Position numbers and translations under genes: made by a program
DNA from: Spongiibacter sp. IMCC21906
Lineage (GTDB): Bacteria; Pseudomonadota; Gammaproteobacteria; Pseudomonadales; Spongiibacteraceae
Direction: 5' to 3'
Length of the DNA stretch: 64,000 nt
Assembly: GCF_001010805.1 (NCBI RefSeq)
Contig: NZ_CP011477.1
Span: 1,875,001 to 1,939,000 of the forward strand
Shown here: piece by piece, positions 25,010-40,146 of the stretch
Layout of the letters: each line of letters begins with the position of its first letter
How positions within the stretch are numbered: position 1 is the first letter of the stretch
The notes under the pieces: generated by a model
The model's database searches: none
Seen by the model: only the letters and a program-made list of their open reading frames with translations
What the model was told of the DNA's origin: nothing

Positions 25010-25024
25010 TGATAATTACTATCA
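25010..25024. promoter_or_regulatory. Fur box before the 24948 operon
   Basis: TGATAATTACTATCA matches the 7-1-7 Fur core TGATAAT-N-ATTATCA at 13 of 14 defined positions. It lies 62 bp upstream of the minus-strand start at 24948. Outside this site the 24949-25329 gap holds no gene on either strand that I would support. Confidence 0.8.
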
Positions 25025-25329: not shown

Positions 25330-27531
25330 TTAGAAACTATAGCGCGCGCTGACCATTATCGACCGGCCCGGCTCCAGCAGGGTTTTTACCGTGGTGAATT
25401 CCTGCCCGTAACTGGCCCGGTCGGTGTAGCCTTCGTTGGTCAGGTTGTCGATGGACAGGCGCAGGTTTAAGGCCTCAGACACCGCGTAATTAAGGTAAGC
25501 ATTAACGACAGTGTAGCTGTCCTGTTTGGCACCGTTGCTTTCCAGATCATCGTTTTCCAGAGCATGTTCGGCATCTGCCCCAAGCGTTACCGGAACCTTG
25601 TCAAAATGGTAGCTGCCGCTGACAGTGATGATTTCTCCTAGCGGAATGGTGAAGTAGTTGCCGTCGTAGGAGCTGGCGACTACGCCATCCATTTCTGATT
25701 CTATATTGGCGTATTTGATGGTGAATTCACTACGCTCACCAAGATAGCCCAGCACCAGATCGTAGCCATCAATTTTAAAATCCGATGTTAAATTGGCGCC
25801 CCCATCGTAGGAAGGTGTGCGACCGTTTTCGATGTCGGTTTTATACATTGTGGCTTCAGCGAAAACCTGTTCGAGCTGAGTGCGAAGGCCAACACTGTAA
25901 TTATCGGCTTCCACTGCTTTGACGTCGTCGTAAGTCCAGGCGCCGTTGAGAATAAAGTTTTCTGCCAGCGCGACACCGCCCCACACATGGGCGTAGGCGG
26001 CTTTGGCGGTGAGGACGTCGTTGATGTAATAGTCGGCAGCAATATTGCCGCTGGTGCCGCTGTCATCGTGGCTGGAGCCGTCGGTGCCGGTGAATTCCTG
26101 ACGGTCGTGGCGCAGGCCGTAGGATAAATCCAGTTTTTCGCCAATGGTTTGCCGAAACTGAATGAAGGCCCCAATGTTTTCGGCTTGTTCTTCCAAGTCG
26201 GGGTCGCCTTCATACTGGAATACGGCGCTGTCGTCATAATGGTCCAGCCCGGCCACAACTTCGCCGAAACCGGTGTAAAAAGTGTTCTTGAATGTCGCGG
26301 ACTGACTGTCGGTGATGCCGGTATAAACGATCAGGGCGGTGGGGTCGGCCAGTGGCACCTCACGGGTTTCCAGCTCGGTTTCGCCCTTGGCAATCGTTAC
26401 GCTAGGGTTCCACAGGCCTTGGGCAGTATCGCGGCTGTAATTAAAAGTTAGATTTTCGCGGCTTAAATCGTAAATCCGAGATTCTGGCACCGGGCGACCT
26501 GCACTCAGGCCGACGAAGTTGGCGCGGTAGGGACGCTGGGATTCGTCATTGACGTTTTCCATGGTCAGTTCAAAACGGTCGGATTGATCATTTTCATAGG
26601 CGACCTTCATCAATCGGCTGAGCAAGCCTGGCTCGGTAAAGCGTACGGTGTCGCCTTCGCCATCTTCGTAGTCATCGCCGTTACTGTGGTTCAGGTAGGC
26701 TAGGGCTTCAAAGCCGCCGTTGCGGCCATATACCGAGCCACCGGTAGTGAGTTGATCACCATTGGAGCCGTAACGGCCGTCAACAAAGCCGCCAAAATTA
26801 TCTTCGGGGTCGAGCAGGTCCGCCACGTCAACGGTTTCGTACACCAGGCTGCCGCCAATGGCGCCGGGGCCATCGTCGGCAGGGGCAACCCCGGCGGAAG
26901 CACGTACGGCTTTCAGCAATGAAGGATCAATCAGGTTGGTGGCATTGTGGTGGAAGACCTTGTTGTTCTGGCGACCACCGTCAATGGTGACGGCCATAGC
27001 GGTTTCTTCAACACCCCGTACATACACCTTCTGGTTAACGGGAATGGAGCCGCCGACGGCCACAGCGGCATCTTTCTTGAACAGCTCCTTGATGTCTCGC
27101 GGTTGCACCGCATCGATATCGTCCCGTCCGTAATCCAGCGATGTTTGGGGCGAGTTTATCGCAGCTGCGCTGATTTTGACGGGGGGAAGGGTAGTGGGGC
27201 CAGCGCTATCTGGCACGGCGACGAGTTTGACCTGAGCTTTCCCAGTGAACTGGAAGTCTACGCCAGACCCTTGTAGCAGTTGTCGCAGTGCTTGCTCCGG
27301 GGTGAGTTGCCCGGAAATGGCTGGCGCCTGTTTCCCTCGTAAGAGGGCGGCGTCACCGCCAATTATCAAACCGGTTTGCTCTGCCAGGTCCAGCACCGCC
27401 TGATCCAAGTCCTGGGCGGGCATATTGATGGTAACCGCGCTGTCCGCCAGCGAAACTATTGGTGTTGCCAGGCCCAAACCCAGTGAAAGGATGGCTGCGT
27501 ACAGTGGACTGCGTTGAACGGTCTTGCTCAT
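25330..27531 (-). CDS. TonB-dependent receptor with STN signalling domain (FecA/HasR type)
   Basis: Encodes 733 aa. A Sec signal peptide (about residues 1-29) is followed by a secretin/TonB N-terminal (STN) domain, about residues 33-107: VTINMPAQDLDQAVLDLAEQ, LIIGGDAALLRGKQAP and PEQALRQLLQGSG. The plug has QPRDIKELFKKDAAVAVGG, VYVRGVEETAMAVTIDGG and DDGPGAIGGSLVYETVDVAD, resembling heme/haemoglobin-type receptors; a barrel follows and ends GRSIMVSARYSF. The STN domain signals to FecR, encoded just upstream. AGGAGC before the ATG supports the start. The ligand is unknown; heme or a ferric chelate is likely given the Fur-controlled FecIR pair. Confidence 0.9.
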   Translation of the reverse strand: MSKTVQRSPLYAAILSLGLGLATPIVSLADSAVTINMPAQDLDQAVLDLAEQTGLIIGGDAALLRGKQAPAISGQLTPEQALRQLLQGSGVDFQFTGKAQVKLVAVPDSAGPTTLPPVKISAAAINSPQTSLDYGRDDIDAVQPRDIKELFKKDAAVAVGGSIPVNQKVYVRGVEETAMAVTIDGGRQNNKVFHHNATNLIDPSLLKAVRASAGVAPADDGPGAIGGSLVYETVDVADLLDPEDNFGGFVDGRYGSNGDQLTTGGSVYGRNGGFEALAYLNHSNGDDYEDGEGDTVRFTEPGLLSRLMKVAYENDQSDRFELTMENVNDESQRPYRANFVGLSAGRPVPESRIYDLSRENLTFNYSRDTAQGLWNPSVTIAKGETELETREVPLADPTALIVYTGITDSQSATFKNTFYTGFGEVVAGLDHYDDSAVFQYEGDPDLEEQAENIGAFIQFRQTIGEKLDLSYGLRHDRQEFTGTDGSSHDDSGTSGNIAADYYINDVLTAKAAYAHVWGGVALAENFILNGAWTYDDVKAVEADNYSVGLRTQLEQVFAEATMYKTDIENGRTPSYDGGANLTSDFKIDGYDLVLGYLGERSEFTIKYANIESEMDGVVASSYDGNYFTIPLGEIITVSGSYHFDKVPVTLGADAEHALENDDLESNGAKQDSYTVVNAYLNYAVSEALNLRLSIDNLTNEGYTDRASYGQEFTTVKTLLEPGRSIMVSARYSF

Positions 27532-29416: not shown

Positions 29417-29455
29417 CAGGATTGCATCTGCGCAGGTGAACGATATTTTAGATAA

Positions 29456-29470
29456 TGATAGTCATTATCA
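29456..29470. promoter_or_regulatory. Fur box before fecI
   Basis: TGATAGTCATTATCA matches the 7-1-7 Fur core at 13 of 14 positions, and the surrounding 19-mer at 29451-29469 matches the classic Fur box GATAATGATAATCATTATC at 18 of 19. A further TTATC at 29471-29475 extends the array. The fecI ATG is about 40 bp away on the minus strand. The rest of the 29417-29874 gap contains only a short CCTCA/TGAGG hairpin near 29572 and no supportable gene. Confidence 0.92.
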
Positions 29471-29874
29471 TTATCAGGTGCAAGCAGCCCAGTCTTGAAG
29501 TGTTAGAGGCCGGTTAAGCGGTTTGCGCGAAAATTTTTACCCCCCTTTTAGGCGTCATGTTCCTCATGCGTGAGGGGCTAATGATTTGGCAGATAAAATA
29601 AGCCGTTTCCGAGGGAGCCTGCTAGCGCAAAAATGCCGTTGCGTATTGTGATCAATATTTCGACAATGGCAGTTAGGTATTTTTGTGAGTGCTGGTCGCA
29701 GAGGTCTGAAGATCGAGCTGTCTTTCTGGGATGCATCGCAGTAGAGGGGCTTTATTATGTGCAAAGATAGCCGAGTAATTAATTGCTGGAGTAGCTGAAC
29801 CAAGCCGGTGGACGATTGTTCTAACGCCGTGAGCATCTGTGATAATAGCGAATGAATAAAAGAAGGTGACTGGA

Positions 29875-36567: not shown

Positions 36568-37983
36568 ATGTTGAAGAAAATTCTCATCGCCAATCGCGGC
36601 GAGATTGCAGTGCGTATTGTGCGTGCTTGCGCAGAAATGGGGATTCGCTCGGCGGCCATATACACCGAACCGGACCGGTTTTCGCTGCATGTAAAGCGCG
36701 CAGACGAGGCTTATAACGTCGGTGAAGATCCCCTTGAAGGTTATCTGAACCCTCGAAAACTGGTGGCGTTGGCTGTCGAAACCGGTTGCGATGGCTTGCA
36801 CCCCGGTTATGGTTTTCTATCCGAGAACGACGAGTTGGCTGAGATTTGCGCTCAGCGTGGCGTTCGGTTTATTGGCCCCAGCGCTGAAGTCATTCGCCGA
36901 ATGGGTGACAAGACCGAAGCCCGGCGGGCGATGACAGCGGCTGGAGTGCCGGTGACCCCCGGCACCGAAGACAATCTTGCCGATGTTGATGAGGCTGTTG
37001 CCGTGGCCGCGGATATTGGCTACCCCGTGATGCTGAAAGCCACTTCTGGCGGTGGCGGCCGGGGTATCCGGCGCTGCGATAGCGAAGAGGATTTGCGTCG
37101 TCAGTTTAGCCGCGTGGTGTCAGAGGCAACCAAAGCCTTTGGCCGTGCCGATGTGTTTTTAGAAAAATGCATTGTGAATCCCCGTCATATCGAATCGCAG
37201 ATTTTGGCCGATAGCCAGGGCAATGTGATTCATTTATTTGAGCGGGACTGCTCCATTCAGCGCCGCAATCAAAAGCTGATTGAAATCGCACCGTCTCCCC
37301 AGCTTACCCCCGAGCAGCGCGCTTATATTGGTGATCTGTCAGTTCGCGCCGCCGAAGCGGTGGGCTATGAAAATGCCGGCACGGTGGAATTTTTGCTGGC
37401 AGATAATCAAATTTACTTTATGGAAATGAATACCCGGGTACAGGTGGAGCACACCATCACCGAGCAGATTACGGGGGTGGATATCGTTCGGGAGCAAATA
37501 CGCATTGCTTCGGGTTTGCCTTTGGCGTATCGACAAGAGGACATTTCTTATCGGGGATATGCCATGCAATTTAGGGTGAATGCAGAAGACCCTAAAAATG
37601 ATTTTCTGCCAAGCTTCGGCAAAATCAGCCGCTACTATGCGCCGGGTGGGCCGGGGGTGCGCACCGATACCGCGATTTACACCGGCTATAACATTCCGCC
37701 GTATTTTGACTCAATGTGTCTCAAACTCATTGTGTGGGGCCTGACTTGGGAGGAAGTGCTTAATCGAGGCGAGCGAGCCTTGAACGACATGCGCTTGCAG
37801 GGGGTAAAAACCACCGCCTCTTATTACCAGCAAATTCTCAAGCACCCTGATTTTCGGGCCGCGAATTTTGATACCAGTTTTGTTGAAAGTCACCCGGAAT
37901 TGATTCAGTACTCTGATAAAAGTCGTCCAGAAGAAGTGGCCCTGGCGGTAGCTGCCGCCATTGCTGCTTACGCTGGCCTGTAA
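36568..37983 (+). CDS. pycA: Pyruvate carboxylase subunit A (biotin carboxylase)
   Basis: Encodes 471 aa. It carboxylates biotin with ATP and bicarbonate. Motifs: ILIANRGEIAVRIVRACAEM at the start, the ATP-grasp glycine loop KATSGGGGRGIRR, and FMEMNTRVQVEHTITEQITG near residue 290. AccC of acetyl-CoA carboxylase is a close paralogue of similar length; assignment to pyruvate carboxylase rests on the neighbouring oxaloacetate-type carboxyltransferase/biotin subunit 17 bp downstream. GAGGGAG lies before the ATG. The pair replenishes oxaloacetate for the TCA cycle and gluconeogenesis. Confidence 0.92.
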   Translation: MLKKILIANRGEIAVRIVRACAEMGIRSAAIYTEPDRFSLHVKRADEAYNVGEDPLEGYLNPRKLVALAVETGCDGLHPGYGFLSENDELAEICAQRGVRFIGPSAEVIRRMGDKTEARRAMTAAGVPVTPGTEDNLADVDEAVAVAADIGYPVMLKATSGGGGRGIRRCDSEEDLRRQFSRVVSEATKAFGRADVFLEKCIVNPRHIESQILADSQGNVIHLFERDCSIQRRNQKLIEIAPSPQLTPEQRAYIGDLSVRAAEAVGYENAGTVEFLLADNQIYFMEMNTRVQVEHTITEQITGVDIVREQIRIASGLPLAYRQEDISYRGYAMQFRVNAEDPKNDFLPSFGKISRYYAPGGPGVRTDTAIYTGYNIPPYFDSMCLKLIVWGLTWEEVLNRGERALNDMRLQGVKTTASYYQQILKHPDFRAANFDTSFVESHPELIQYSDKSRPEEVALAVAAAIAAYAGL

Positions 37984-38000
37984 CGCGAAAGGAATTGATG

Positions 38001-39812
38001 ATGAGTAAAGCCAAAGCTGTAAAAATTACCGATGTTGCTCTTCGAGATGGTCATCAGTCGCTGATTGCCACCCGGCTGCGTACAGAGGATATGTTGCCCG
38101 TTTGCCCAGAAATGGACGAGGTGGGATTTTGGTCGATGGAAGTGTGGGGCGGGGCGACCTTTGACGCCTGCGTACGGTTTTTGAAAGAAGATCCCTGGGA
38201 GCGATTGCGTCAGCTTCGGGCGGCATTGCCTAACACGCAATTGCAAATGCTGTTGCGGGGCCAAAACCTGCTGGGTTATCGCCATTATTCCGATGACGTG
38301 GTGAAGGCCTTTGTCAAAAAATCTGCCGAAAATGGCATGGATATTTTCCGGATTTTTGATGCGATGAACGATGTCAGAAATTTGGAAACGGCCATCGTTG
38401 CGGTTAAAGACGCTGGTAAACATGCCCAAGGCACATTGTGTTACACCACCAGTCCGGTCCATAACACAAAGGTGTTTATGAAGCAGGCCGAGGCAATGGT
38501 GGCGATGGGCGTGGACTCCATTGCAATAAAGGATATGGCAGGATTGCTGACGCCTTCGGCCACAGCAGAGTTGGTGGCCGCGTTGAAAGACAAGTTTGAG
38601 GTCCCGATTGCGCTCCACAGTCATATGACGTCTGGTTTGGCGGGTTTGTGTCAGCAGCGGGCTATCGATGAAGGGGTAGATATTATTGATACCGCTATCT
38701 CAGCCTTTGCCAATGGCACCAGTCATCCGGCGACTGAAACCATGGTGGCAGGTTTAAAAGGCACAGCGCGAGATACCGGTTTGGATTTGGAAAAACTACA
38801 GAGTATTGGCAAAAAGCTCTGGGCTGTGCGCAAAAAATATCACCAGTTTGAAAGTGAATTTACTAAAGAAGATGTCGGTGTACAGATTAGTCAGGTACCG
38901 GGCGGCATGATGTCCAATTTGGCGAATCAGTTAAAAGAGCAGGGGGCGCTTAATCGGATTGACGAGGTTTTTGCGGAAATTCCCGCCGTGCGTAAAGATT
39001 TAGGCTACCCGCCATTAGTGACACCCAGCTCGCAAATAGTCGGCACTCAAGCAGTGATGAATATTCTGGCCGATAAACGCTATACCACCATTACCAATGA
39101 AGTGAAGCGTTATCTGCAAGGTCATTACGGGGCGGCGCCCGCTGAGGTAAATGCCGAGCTGCGTGCGCGCGCTATTGGCAGTGAGGATGTGATTGATGTG
39201 CGCCCCGCAGACTTGATCCTCCCGGAGTTAGAAAAGCTGCGGGGTGAAATTGCCGAGCTGGCTGACAGCGAAGAAGATGTTTTGACCTATGCCATGTTCC
39301 CGGATTTGGCGAAGGATTTTCTTCAGCAGCGCCGAGATGGCAGCTTGCAGCCCGAAATCTTAGAGGCAGCAGATGGCGGCCAGCGTCCGGTGAGTGAGGG
39401 CGGGGTCCCCACCGAGTTTGTTATTGATGTGCATGGTGAGAGCTATCAAGTGGCGATCACTGGCGTGGGAATTAAAGGGGCAGGAAAGCGTCATGTTTAT
39501 TTGACGCTGGATGGTATGCCCGAAGAAGTGGTGTTCGAAGCCCTCAATGAATATCAAGCTGAAGGCGGAAGCGGTCGCAAACAAGCCAGCAAACCCGGTC
39601 ATGTAACAACAAATATGCCGGGTAATATCGTCGAGGTCTTAGTGGCGCAAGGAGATAGCGTGTCAGAAGGACAGGCGGTCTTGGTCACCGAAGCCATGAA
39701 GATGGAGGCTGAGGTTCAGGCTCCTATTTCTGGGACCGTGATCGGTATCCATGTCAGCAAGGGTGATCGAGTAACACCGGGTGAGGTGTTGATAGAAATC
39801 GAGGCTTCTTAG
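38001..39812 (+). CDS. pycB: Pyruvate carboxylase subunit B / oxaloacetate decarboxylase alpha-type (carboxyltransferase plus biotin domain)
   Basis: Encodes 603 aa from the ATG at 38001 (AAAGGAA 7 bp upstream); ATG 37998 and TTG 37995 are close alternatives. The carboxyltransferase TIM barrel has ALRDGHQSLIATRLRTEDML, metal ligands in HSHMTSGLAGL and the catalytic lysine region SIAIKDMAGLLTP. The C-terminal 75 residues are a biotinyl domain with the lysine in VTEAMKMEAEV. Such proteins serve either as PycB or as sodium-pumping decarboxylase alpha subunit; no membrane beta subunit is nearby, and the biotin carboxylase and LysR neighbours favour PycB. Confidence 0.93.
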   Translation: MSKAKAVKITDVALRDGHQSLIATRLRTEDMLPVCPEMDEVGFWSMEVWGGATFDACVRFLKEDPWERLRQLRAALPNTQLQMLLRGQNLLGYRHYSDDVVKAFVKKSAENGMDIFRIFDAMNDVRNLETAIVAVKDAGKHAQGTLCYTTSPVHNTKVFMKQAEAMVAMGVDSIAIKDMAGLLTPSATAELVAALKDKFEVPIALHSHMTSGLAGLCQQRAIDEGVDIIDTAISAFANGTSHPATETMVAGLKGTARDTGLDLEKLQSIGKKLWAVRKKYHQFESEFTKEDVGVQISQVPGGMMSNLANQLKEQGALNRIDEVFAEIPAVRKDLGYPPLVTPSSQIVGTQAVMNILADKRYTTITNEVKRYLQGHYGAAPAEVNAELRARAIGSEDVIDVRPADLILPELEKLRGEIAELADSEEDVLTYAMFPDLAKDFLQQRRDGSLQPEILEAADGGQRPVSEGGVPTEFVIDVHGESYQVAITGVGIKGAGKRHVYLTLDGMPEEVVFEALNEYQAEGGSGRKQASKPGHVTTNMPGNIVEVLVAQGDSVSEGQAVLVTEAMKMEAEVQAPISGTVIGIHVSKGDRVTPGEVLIEIEAS

Positions 39813-39852: not shown

Positions 39853-39881
39853 TTGCAATTAGTAATGATAATAATTATCAT
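39853..39881 (+). promoter_or_regulatory. Promoter fully covered by a perfect Fur box
   Basis: TTGCAA at 39853-39858, a 17-bp spacer and TATCAT at 39876-39881 form a good sigma-70 promoter. Over it lies a 25-bp perfect palindrome at 39861-39885 (12-bp arms around one A), whose centre TGATAATAATTATCA (39866-39880) is an exact match to the 7-1-7 Fur core. Iron-loaded Fur would block RNA polymerase here. Confidence 0.85.
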
Positions 39882-39887
39882 TACTAG

Positions 39888-39989
39888 CAAGTCTTCGGTG
39901 CTGAGTCATGTCTCCCCCCTCATCACACACCTCGGCACTGAAGGTTTGTCTCTCCGTATTGGCCCCGGCTTTTTAGCCGGGGCTTTTTT
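39888..39989 (+). ncRNA. Predicted Fur-repressed small RNA with C-rich loop
   Basis: Predicted transcript of about 100 nt starting about 7 nt after the -10 at 39881. A 13-bp stem (39893-39905 with 39931-39943, two G-U pairs, no mismatch) holds a 25-nt loop (39906-39930) with six consecutive C at 39914-39919. A short single-stranded linker follows, then a rho-independent terminator (8-bp GC stem, six T) ending at 39989. No reading frame of note is inside. Position, size, Fur control and terminator match iron-sparing sRNAs such as RyhB and PrrF, but the sequence resembles neither by eye. The C-rich loop could pair with purine-rich ribosome-binding sites. Expression is not shown by sequence. Confidence 0.75.
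39962..39989 (+). terminator. Rho-independent terminator of the sRNA
   Basis: GCCCCGGC (39962-39969) and GCCGGGGC (39976-39983) form a perfect 8-bp GC stem with a TTTTTA loop and a T6 tail at 39984-39989. The opposite strand lacks a T-run, so it acts on plus-strand transcripts. It could also stop read-through from pycB. Confidence 0.93.
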
Positions 39990-40146
39990 ATGAGTCAGGT
40001 TTTTATGGGTCGGGTGTTGGCGGCGTTGTTTGCTGCAATGACAGACATTGTGCCTGGCGACCAGACGCTTCTATAATCCATGGCCTTAAAACGATAGTTT
40101 CAATCCGTTTTCATTGAGCTGTGGTCGAATACAGAGGGGTAATTTC

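Follow-up and report, generated by a model that had tools for sequence, protein, structure and literature searches.

The segment at positions 39853-39989 of the window, the 64,000-nt stretch of Spongiibacter sp. IMCC21906 DNA analysed here, in all likelihood contains a gene for a Fur-controlled small RNA (sRNA) that is undescribed as far as we have searched. On the basis of its sequence we read the sRNA as a trans-acting, lineage-specific member of the iron-sparing type and as a functional analogue of RyhB, PrrF, BrrF and IsrR. The window belongs to a genome of 3.48 Mb (G000), which was compared with its relatives in a set of 18 genus genomes; in the database scheme this genus is Spongiibacter/Zhongshania and includes Spongiibacter thalassae, of the family Spongiibacteraceae, together with several Zhongshania species.

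Promoter, Fur box and predicted transcript

The segment is preceded by a biotin-carboxylase/carboxyltransferase gene pair (36568-37983 and 37995-39812, identified by Pfam) and is composed of the following features, listed with the nearest gene:

37995-39812, plus strand: carboxylase/biotin-carrier subunit gene (pycB/oadA-like), upstream neighbour and synteny marker, outside the sRNA
39853-39881, plus strand: sigma-70-like promoter by consensus match, with -35 TTGCAA (39853-39858), a 17-nt spacer and -10 TATCAT (39876-39881)
39860-39886, no strand assigned: Fur box, a perfect palindrome of 27 bp with the 7-1-7 core TGATAATAATTATCA at 39866-39880, by palindrome and core match
39888-39989, plus strand: predicted sRNA transcript of about 102 nt, its start placed from the -10
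39888-39948, plus strand: 5' hairpin with an 18-bp stem (39888-39905/39931-39948) and a 25-nt loop, by predicted fold and covariation
39914-39919, plus strand: CCCCCC run in the loop, a possible second pairing site, never shorter than five C in the 13 copies
39949-39960, plus strand: single-stranded linker UCUCUCCGUAUU with invariant UCUCUCC, put forward as the chief seed for pairing with sodB and sdhC, by fold, alignment and duplexes
39961-39989, plus strand: intrinsic terminator, a 10-bp stem (39961-39984) followed by a T run, by terminator prediction and fold

The original prediction described a promoter of the form TTGCAA-17-TATCAT overlaid by a perfect 25-bp palindrome with an exact 7-1-7 Fur core. 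Promoter and core are present as described, and the palindrome does lie over the promoter, but it is 27 bp long. The core is the sole zero-mismatch match within the window; at up to three mismatches the window holds 10 matches against 2.48 expected, a number reached by none of 100 shuffles. Counts of the promoter consensus are not above shuffles (3 found, 4.0 expected), and the TTG of the -35 is unchanged across 11 aligned genomes. Two further strong Fur-like boxes lie in the window at 25010-25024 and 29450-29476, the former close to a minus-strand gene (25330-27531) that, read from its sequence, is TonB-receptor-like.

The predicted transcript folds with an energy of -45.8 kcal/mol (z -6.33; none of 200 shuffles is as stable), and seven relatives, folded one sequence at a time, show the same shape of two hairpins with z values from -4.05 to -6.74. 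Of the hairpin originally proposed, the 25-nt loop with its CCCCCC stands and the 13-bp stem becomes one of 18 bp, and the rho-independent terminator was recovered at 39961-39984 with its T run, terminator-like sites as such numbering 6 against 4.3 expected. The claim that the segment holds no open reading frame needs rewording: a 46-aa TTG frame (39853-39993) and a 22-aa ATG frame (39908-39976) exist mechanically, but no reading frame is conserved among the ATG starts inside the transcript, the frames of the 13 copies being unlike one another.

Conservation, covariation and loss in the genus

An intact unit of Fur box, hairpin, linker and terminator is found in 13 of the 18 genus genomes, and this conservation makes chance untenable. 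The pycB gene is present in all 18; the unit lies directly 3' of it in 11 genomes, and in G008 and G005 it lies, with its own Fur box, about 1.9 kb past pycB and therefore stands on its own. Upstream of the hairpin, a Fur-like box matching 11 to 14 of 14 positions is found in 13/13 intact copies. The linker motif UCUCUCC and a run of at least five consecutive C are likewise found in all 13, unlike the stems, which vary in sequence.

Compensatory changes in the stem among relatives, to which the original prediction had looked in the segment after pycB, are indeed found. In an alignment of 12 sequences (A7, with G005 left out), 21 of 27 pairs have changed on both sides and pairing is kept while the stem sequence varies. 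The proportion of paired cells is 93.0%, compared with 41.7-48.4% for slid partners and with none of 500 shuffles as high, a figure that leans favourable because the alignment was fitted to the structure. The hairpin alignment was model-based, MAFFT alignments having misplaced the hairpin.

Stem, loop and promoter, the features for which close relatives had been proposed as a test, are kept in the 13 genomes but missing in the other five, which also lack the sdhC site described below. Among these five, G006 lacks a Fur-like box and keeps a diverged body that scores 52.5 bits with model R2, G011 retains a remnant at most, and G002, G010 and G015 have no convincing copy, their weak matches being terminators without linker and box. 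On a three-protein tree these cases amount to three losses (G010; G002/G011/G015; G006), each of which comes with loss of the sdhC loop; since the supported branches leave two independent pairs, a test of this co-loss cannot reach significance. In G010 (L037), two small genes that by eye resemble a VapB/VapC-type toxin-antitoxin pair lie 3' of pycB, the place of the sRNA in most relatives.

Outside the genus, when 390 genomes of the order were searched with model R1 at E up to 0.05, none of the matches in other genera had a Fur-like box (at least 10 of 14 positions); the strict R1 filters recovered 8 of the 13 known genus copies and hence have limited sensitivity, and G003 was perhaps not drawn. 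Among the weaker R1 matches, two have a 10-of-14 Fur-like stretch and none has a higher one. The search with model R2 covered the genus. A strict pattern scan of genome contigs from 84,980 species, from which records near the window were perhaps omitted, gave 10 matches: six from Spongiibacter/Zhongshania, with Fur-like box and hairpin, and four without the box. Within G000, neither R1 nor R2 detected a second sRNA copy above noise. An element in G021, a genome of another family, consists of a hairpin, then AUCUCCGCAUUGCCCC, then a terminator (L068:1420-1590); it is linker-like, has no Fur box and is possibly a related or convergent sRNA.

Complementarity to sodB, sdhC and other mRNAs

A gene for Fe/Mn-SOD was found in 17 of the 18 genus genomes, G003 yielding none, and in 16 of these 17 the sequence GGAGAGA, with which the linker could pair, is at the sodB ribosome-binding site; the exception, G010, is without the sRNA. 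Every sRNA-bearing genome that yielded sodB (12/12) thus has the motif, and it still precedes sodB in four of the five genomes without an intact sRNA. Within gene samples of 400 kb (340 genes in G000, 330 in G009), GGAGAGA precedes two genes in each genome, and sodB is one of the two each time. The search of 29 outgroup genomes gave 24 SOD loci from 22 of them, 23 being readable, and GGAGAGA occurs in none of the 23 reads, G026 having GGAGAG; the assigned start is doubtful in three cases, G040 plus the second copy in each of G048 and G055, and a shift of the start is probable in G038.

The predicted linker-sodB duplex ranks first among 330 genes in G009 and shares first place, to within 0.1 kcal, among 340 in G000, and it is matched by 0 to 3.8% of shuffled sodB leaders across 12 genomes. 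The flanks of the two partners match clade by clade, sRNA UGUCUCUCC facing sodB GGAGAGACA in G000 and G014 and sRNA UGAUUCUCUCC facing sodB GGAGAGAAUCA in G017, G009, G008 and G016 (10 nt in G005), so that the match is 9 nt long in G000 and G014, 8 nt in G004 and 10-11 nt in clade 2. The two to four extra pairing bases beyond UCUCUCC sit in the predicted 3' arm of the stem, the base of which would consequently have to open. The linker match spans 7 nt in the subclade of G007, G013, G012 and G001. There, a bulged pairing of 12-13 bp at about -20 kcal/mol, a value without a shuffle control, is possible between the same sodB site and CUCUCUCUGACGU(U), a stretch of the hairpin loop and the upper part of the stem, and would require opening of the inner stem. 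Because the pairing segment varies among genomes, sodB seems to be a target that the sRNA contacts somewhat differently from one genome to another.

The original prediction proposed that the C-rich loop could block purine-rich ribosome-binding sites of iron-using proteins. Pairing with a ribosome-binding site, that of sodB, is what the sequences point to, but the segment best supported is the linker UCUCUCC and not the C-run, which ranks poorly against sodB and sdhC (66 and 216 of 340 in G000; 175 and 202 of 330 in G009) and may provide a second contact.

The sdhC leader carries, at -77 to -82, a hairpin loop with the sequence GGAGAG in 13/13 sRNA-bearing genomes (pairing assigned by eye). The stem of this hairpin varies in sequence and the loop is constant (alignment A10), and the GGAGAG loop is found in 0/5 genus genomes without an intact sRNA. 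Among outgroup sdhC leaders (190 nt before the Pfam match) GGAGAG occurs in one of 28, where it adjoins the start codon, unlike its placement in the genus. For the linker-sdhC duplex, 0 to 0.6% of shuffles are as good in the six clade-2 genomes; the corresponding values in clade 1 are 4% (G000), 8% (G014) and 40-62% in the other five, the match of 6-7 nt being no better than shuffles in five of the seven genomes. Ranked over 150-nt leaders, sodB is first and sdhC second among 326 sampled genes in G009; in G000, five sampled genes, sodB included, reach at least the sodB score and seven at least the sdhC score. The hexamer GGAGAG itself occurs in 15/329 (G000) and 12/326 (G009) sampled 150-nt leaders. 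We tentatively raise the possibility, which we hold to be somewhat doubtful, that the sdhC leader forms a dedicated docking hairpin that is kept and lost with the sRNA, and that contact between this loop and the linker, about 80 nt upstream of the start codon and away from the ribosome-binding site, is how the sRNA controls sdhCDAB, e.g. by displacing CsrA/RsmA or by opening a cleavage site.

The usual target of iron-sparing sRNAs, acnB, was rejected as a candidate: GGAGAG is absent from the 150 nt upstream of the gene in 18/18 genomes. The acnB leader (L187 in G000 and 17 orthologous loci) is conserved, with small changes, around ATCGATGATGGGCATCGAT and through the GC-rich inverted repeats that come next; this segment is probably structured, and L187 gave no Rfam match. 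In G000, CGGAGAGA precedes an ATG 8 times and the reversed pattern 7 times, which amounts to no enrichment; the genes of more than 100 aa that CGGAGAGA precedes are sufC, an enoyl-CoA hydratase-like gene and a hisE-like gene (named by reading). The sufC ribosome-binding site reads CGGAGAGA, the full complement of UCUCUCCG in the sRNA linker, in 3/3 genomes in which the gene was found (G000, G014 and G004; L255, L256 and L257; E up to 1e-60). SUF is normally wanted in iron starvation, and sufC would be an odd target under this condition. In G000, a small gene that by eye is c-type-cytochrome-like (L261) has GAGGGGGACA before its start and is second-best of 340 for pairing with the C-rich loop, in this one genome.

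Proposed mechanism and relation to known iron-sparing sRNAs

Combining these data, we suggest the following model: (i) when iron is present, Fe-Fur bound to the palindrome over the promoter would keep the sRNA off, as the box suggests; (ii) when iron is short, the cell would make a transcript of about 102 nt, with a stabilising 5' hairpin, the exposed linker and a terminator with a U tail that suggests the use of Hfq; (iii) base pairing of the linker with GGAGAGA would close the sodB ribosome-binding site to translation, and its pairing with GGAGAG in the loop of the sdhC leader hairpin, some 80 nt before the start, would lower sdhCDAB; and (iv) the loop, by way of the C-run and, in one subclade, of CUCUCUCUGACGU, may add contacts. 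The net effect would be that less iron goes into Fe-SOD and succinate dehydrogenase under starvation. The sequences themselves show the Fur box, the structure with its conservation and covariation, the complementarity and the co-loss; transcription, Fur binding, the role of Hfq and the direction of regulation we infer, taking repression of the targets by analogy with RyhB, PrrF and BrrF.

Alternatively, the sRNA is real and Fur-controlled and sodB and sdhC are not its main targets, GGAGAGA being a good ribosome-binding site and the GGAGAG of the sdhC loop a CsrA/RsmA site. The motif of CsrA/RsmA sites is a GGA in a loop, which the sdhC hairpin resembles, and both the weak sdhC duplexes of clade 1 and the persistence of GGAGAGA before sodB in genomes without an intact sRNA agree with this alternative. 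However, GGAGAGA is rare in front of the sampled genes and absent from the outgroup sodB reads (GGAGAG in G026 apart), in each clade the sodB flank follows that of the sRNA, and none of the five genus genomes without an intact sRNA retains the sdhC loop; we consider the alternative unlikely. That the segment is the 3' UTR or terminator of pycAB, with a Fur site serving something else and a hairpin that is processed or inert, would be in line with its place directly 3' of pycB in 11 of 13 genomes, but the promoter-like pair under the Fur box, the conserved linker and the distance of about 1.9 kb from pycB in G008 and G005, with the box kept, make this very improbable.

We give least weight of all to the sRNA being a highly diverged orthologue of PrrF or RyhB. 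PrrF (RF00444) is its best-scoring sub-threshold Rfam match, with 35.4 bits, and has its parts in the same order; yet the gathering cut-off is 90 bits, the score is 16.4 bits without the Fur box and 16.7 bits in a clade-2 copy even with the box, and the alignment rests on the Fur box and the terminator. RyhB is absent among 40 Rfam matches up to E 10 and does not match at gathering. At the Rfam cut-offs the window yields a tRNA alone and 10 further loci yield nothing. In total, the view that this is an undescribed Fur-controlled sRNA with a RyhB/PrrF-like layout and a different sequence has held up: Fur box, stem, linker and terminator occur together in the genus, no Rfam family is reached at its cut-off, and the candidate targets have matching sites. 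We prefer the reading of a Fur-controlled sRNA directed at sodB and sdhC. A literature search on Spongiibacter, Zhongshania and Spongiibacteraceae gave no sRNA work on these bacteria, turning up a paper on Legionella instead.

If confirmed, this would be one more Fur-controlled iron-sparing sRNA, in the marine Spongiibacteraceae. Three lineages without the sRNA, with the sdhC site lost to match, provide natural knock-outs within one genus, and because of these three matched losses one could read from sequence how an sRNA regulon arises and decays.

The predicted sRNA has three traits of the functional class: a Fur box over the sRNA promoter (here with a perfect 7-1-7 core in the window), a structured non-coding transcript with an intrinsic terminator, as predicted, and complementarity to mRNAs of iron-using enzymes, for sodB and sdhC and with acnB lacking a site. 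RyhB of enteric bacteria is a Fur-repressed sRNA, as proposed here, but differs in seed and synteny, the sequence comparison being made through the Rfam model. PrrF1 and PrrF2 of Pseudomonas share the order of Fur box over promoter, 5' hairpin, single-stranded part and terminator, and are present as two copies, unlike the single copy above noise in G000. PMC7377471 lists sdhC and sodB among the confirmed targets of RyhB and PrrF. It describes BrrF of Burkholderia as an iron-starvation sRNA that regulates sdhC and sodB and has no sequence likeness to known Fur sRNAs; in contrast to the sRNA proposed here, BrrF lacks, in that account, a Fur box immediately before it, and its co-expression with hemP is probable. 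According to PMC9410917, IsrR of Staphylococcus and FsrA of Bacillus are Fur-repressed and meet Shine-Dalgarno sequences with C-rich single-stranded regions; IsrR has three such regions and three stem-loops, whereas in the sRNA proposed here a single hairpin carries a C-run and support is best for the linker UCUCUCC. The same paper describes Fur-controlled iron-sparing sRNAs that share neither synteny nor sequence, and its authors expect unrelated Fur-controlled sRNAs to become analogues. Judged by its sequence, the Spongiibacter sRNA joins this known functional kind and lies outside the known sequence families, as far as searched.
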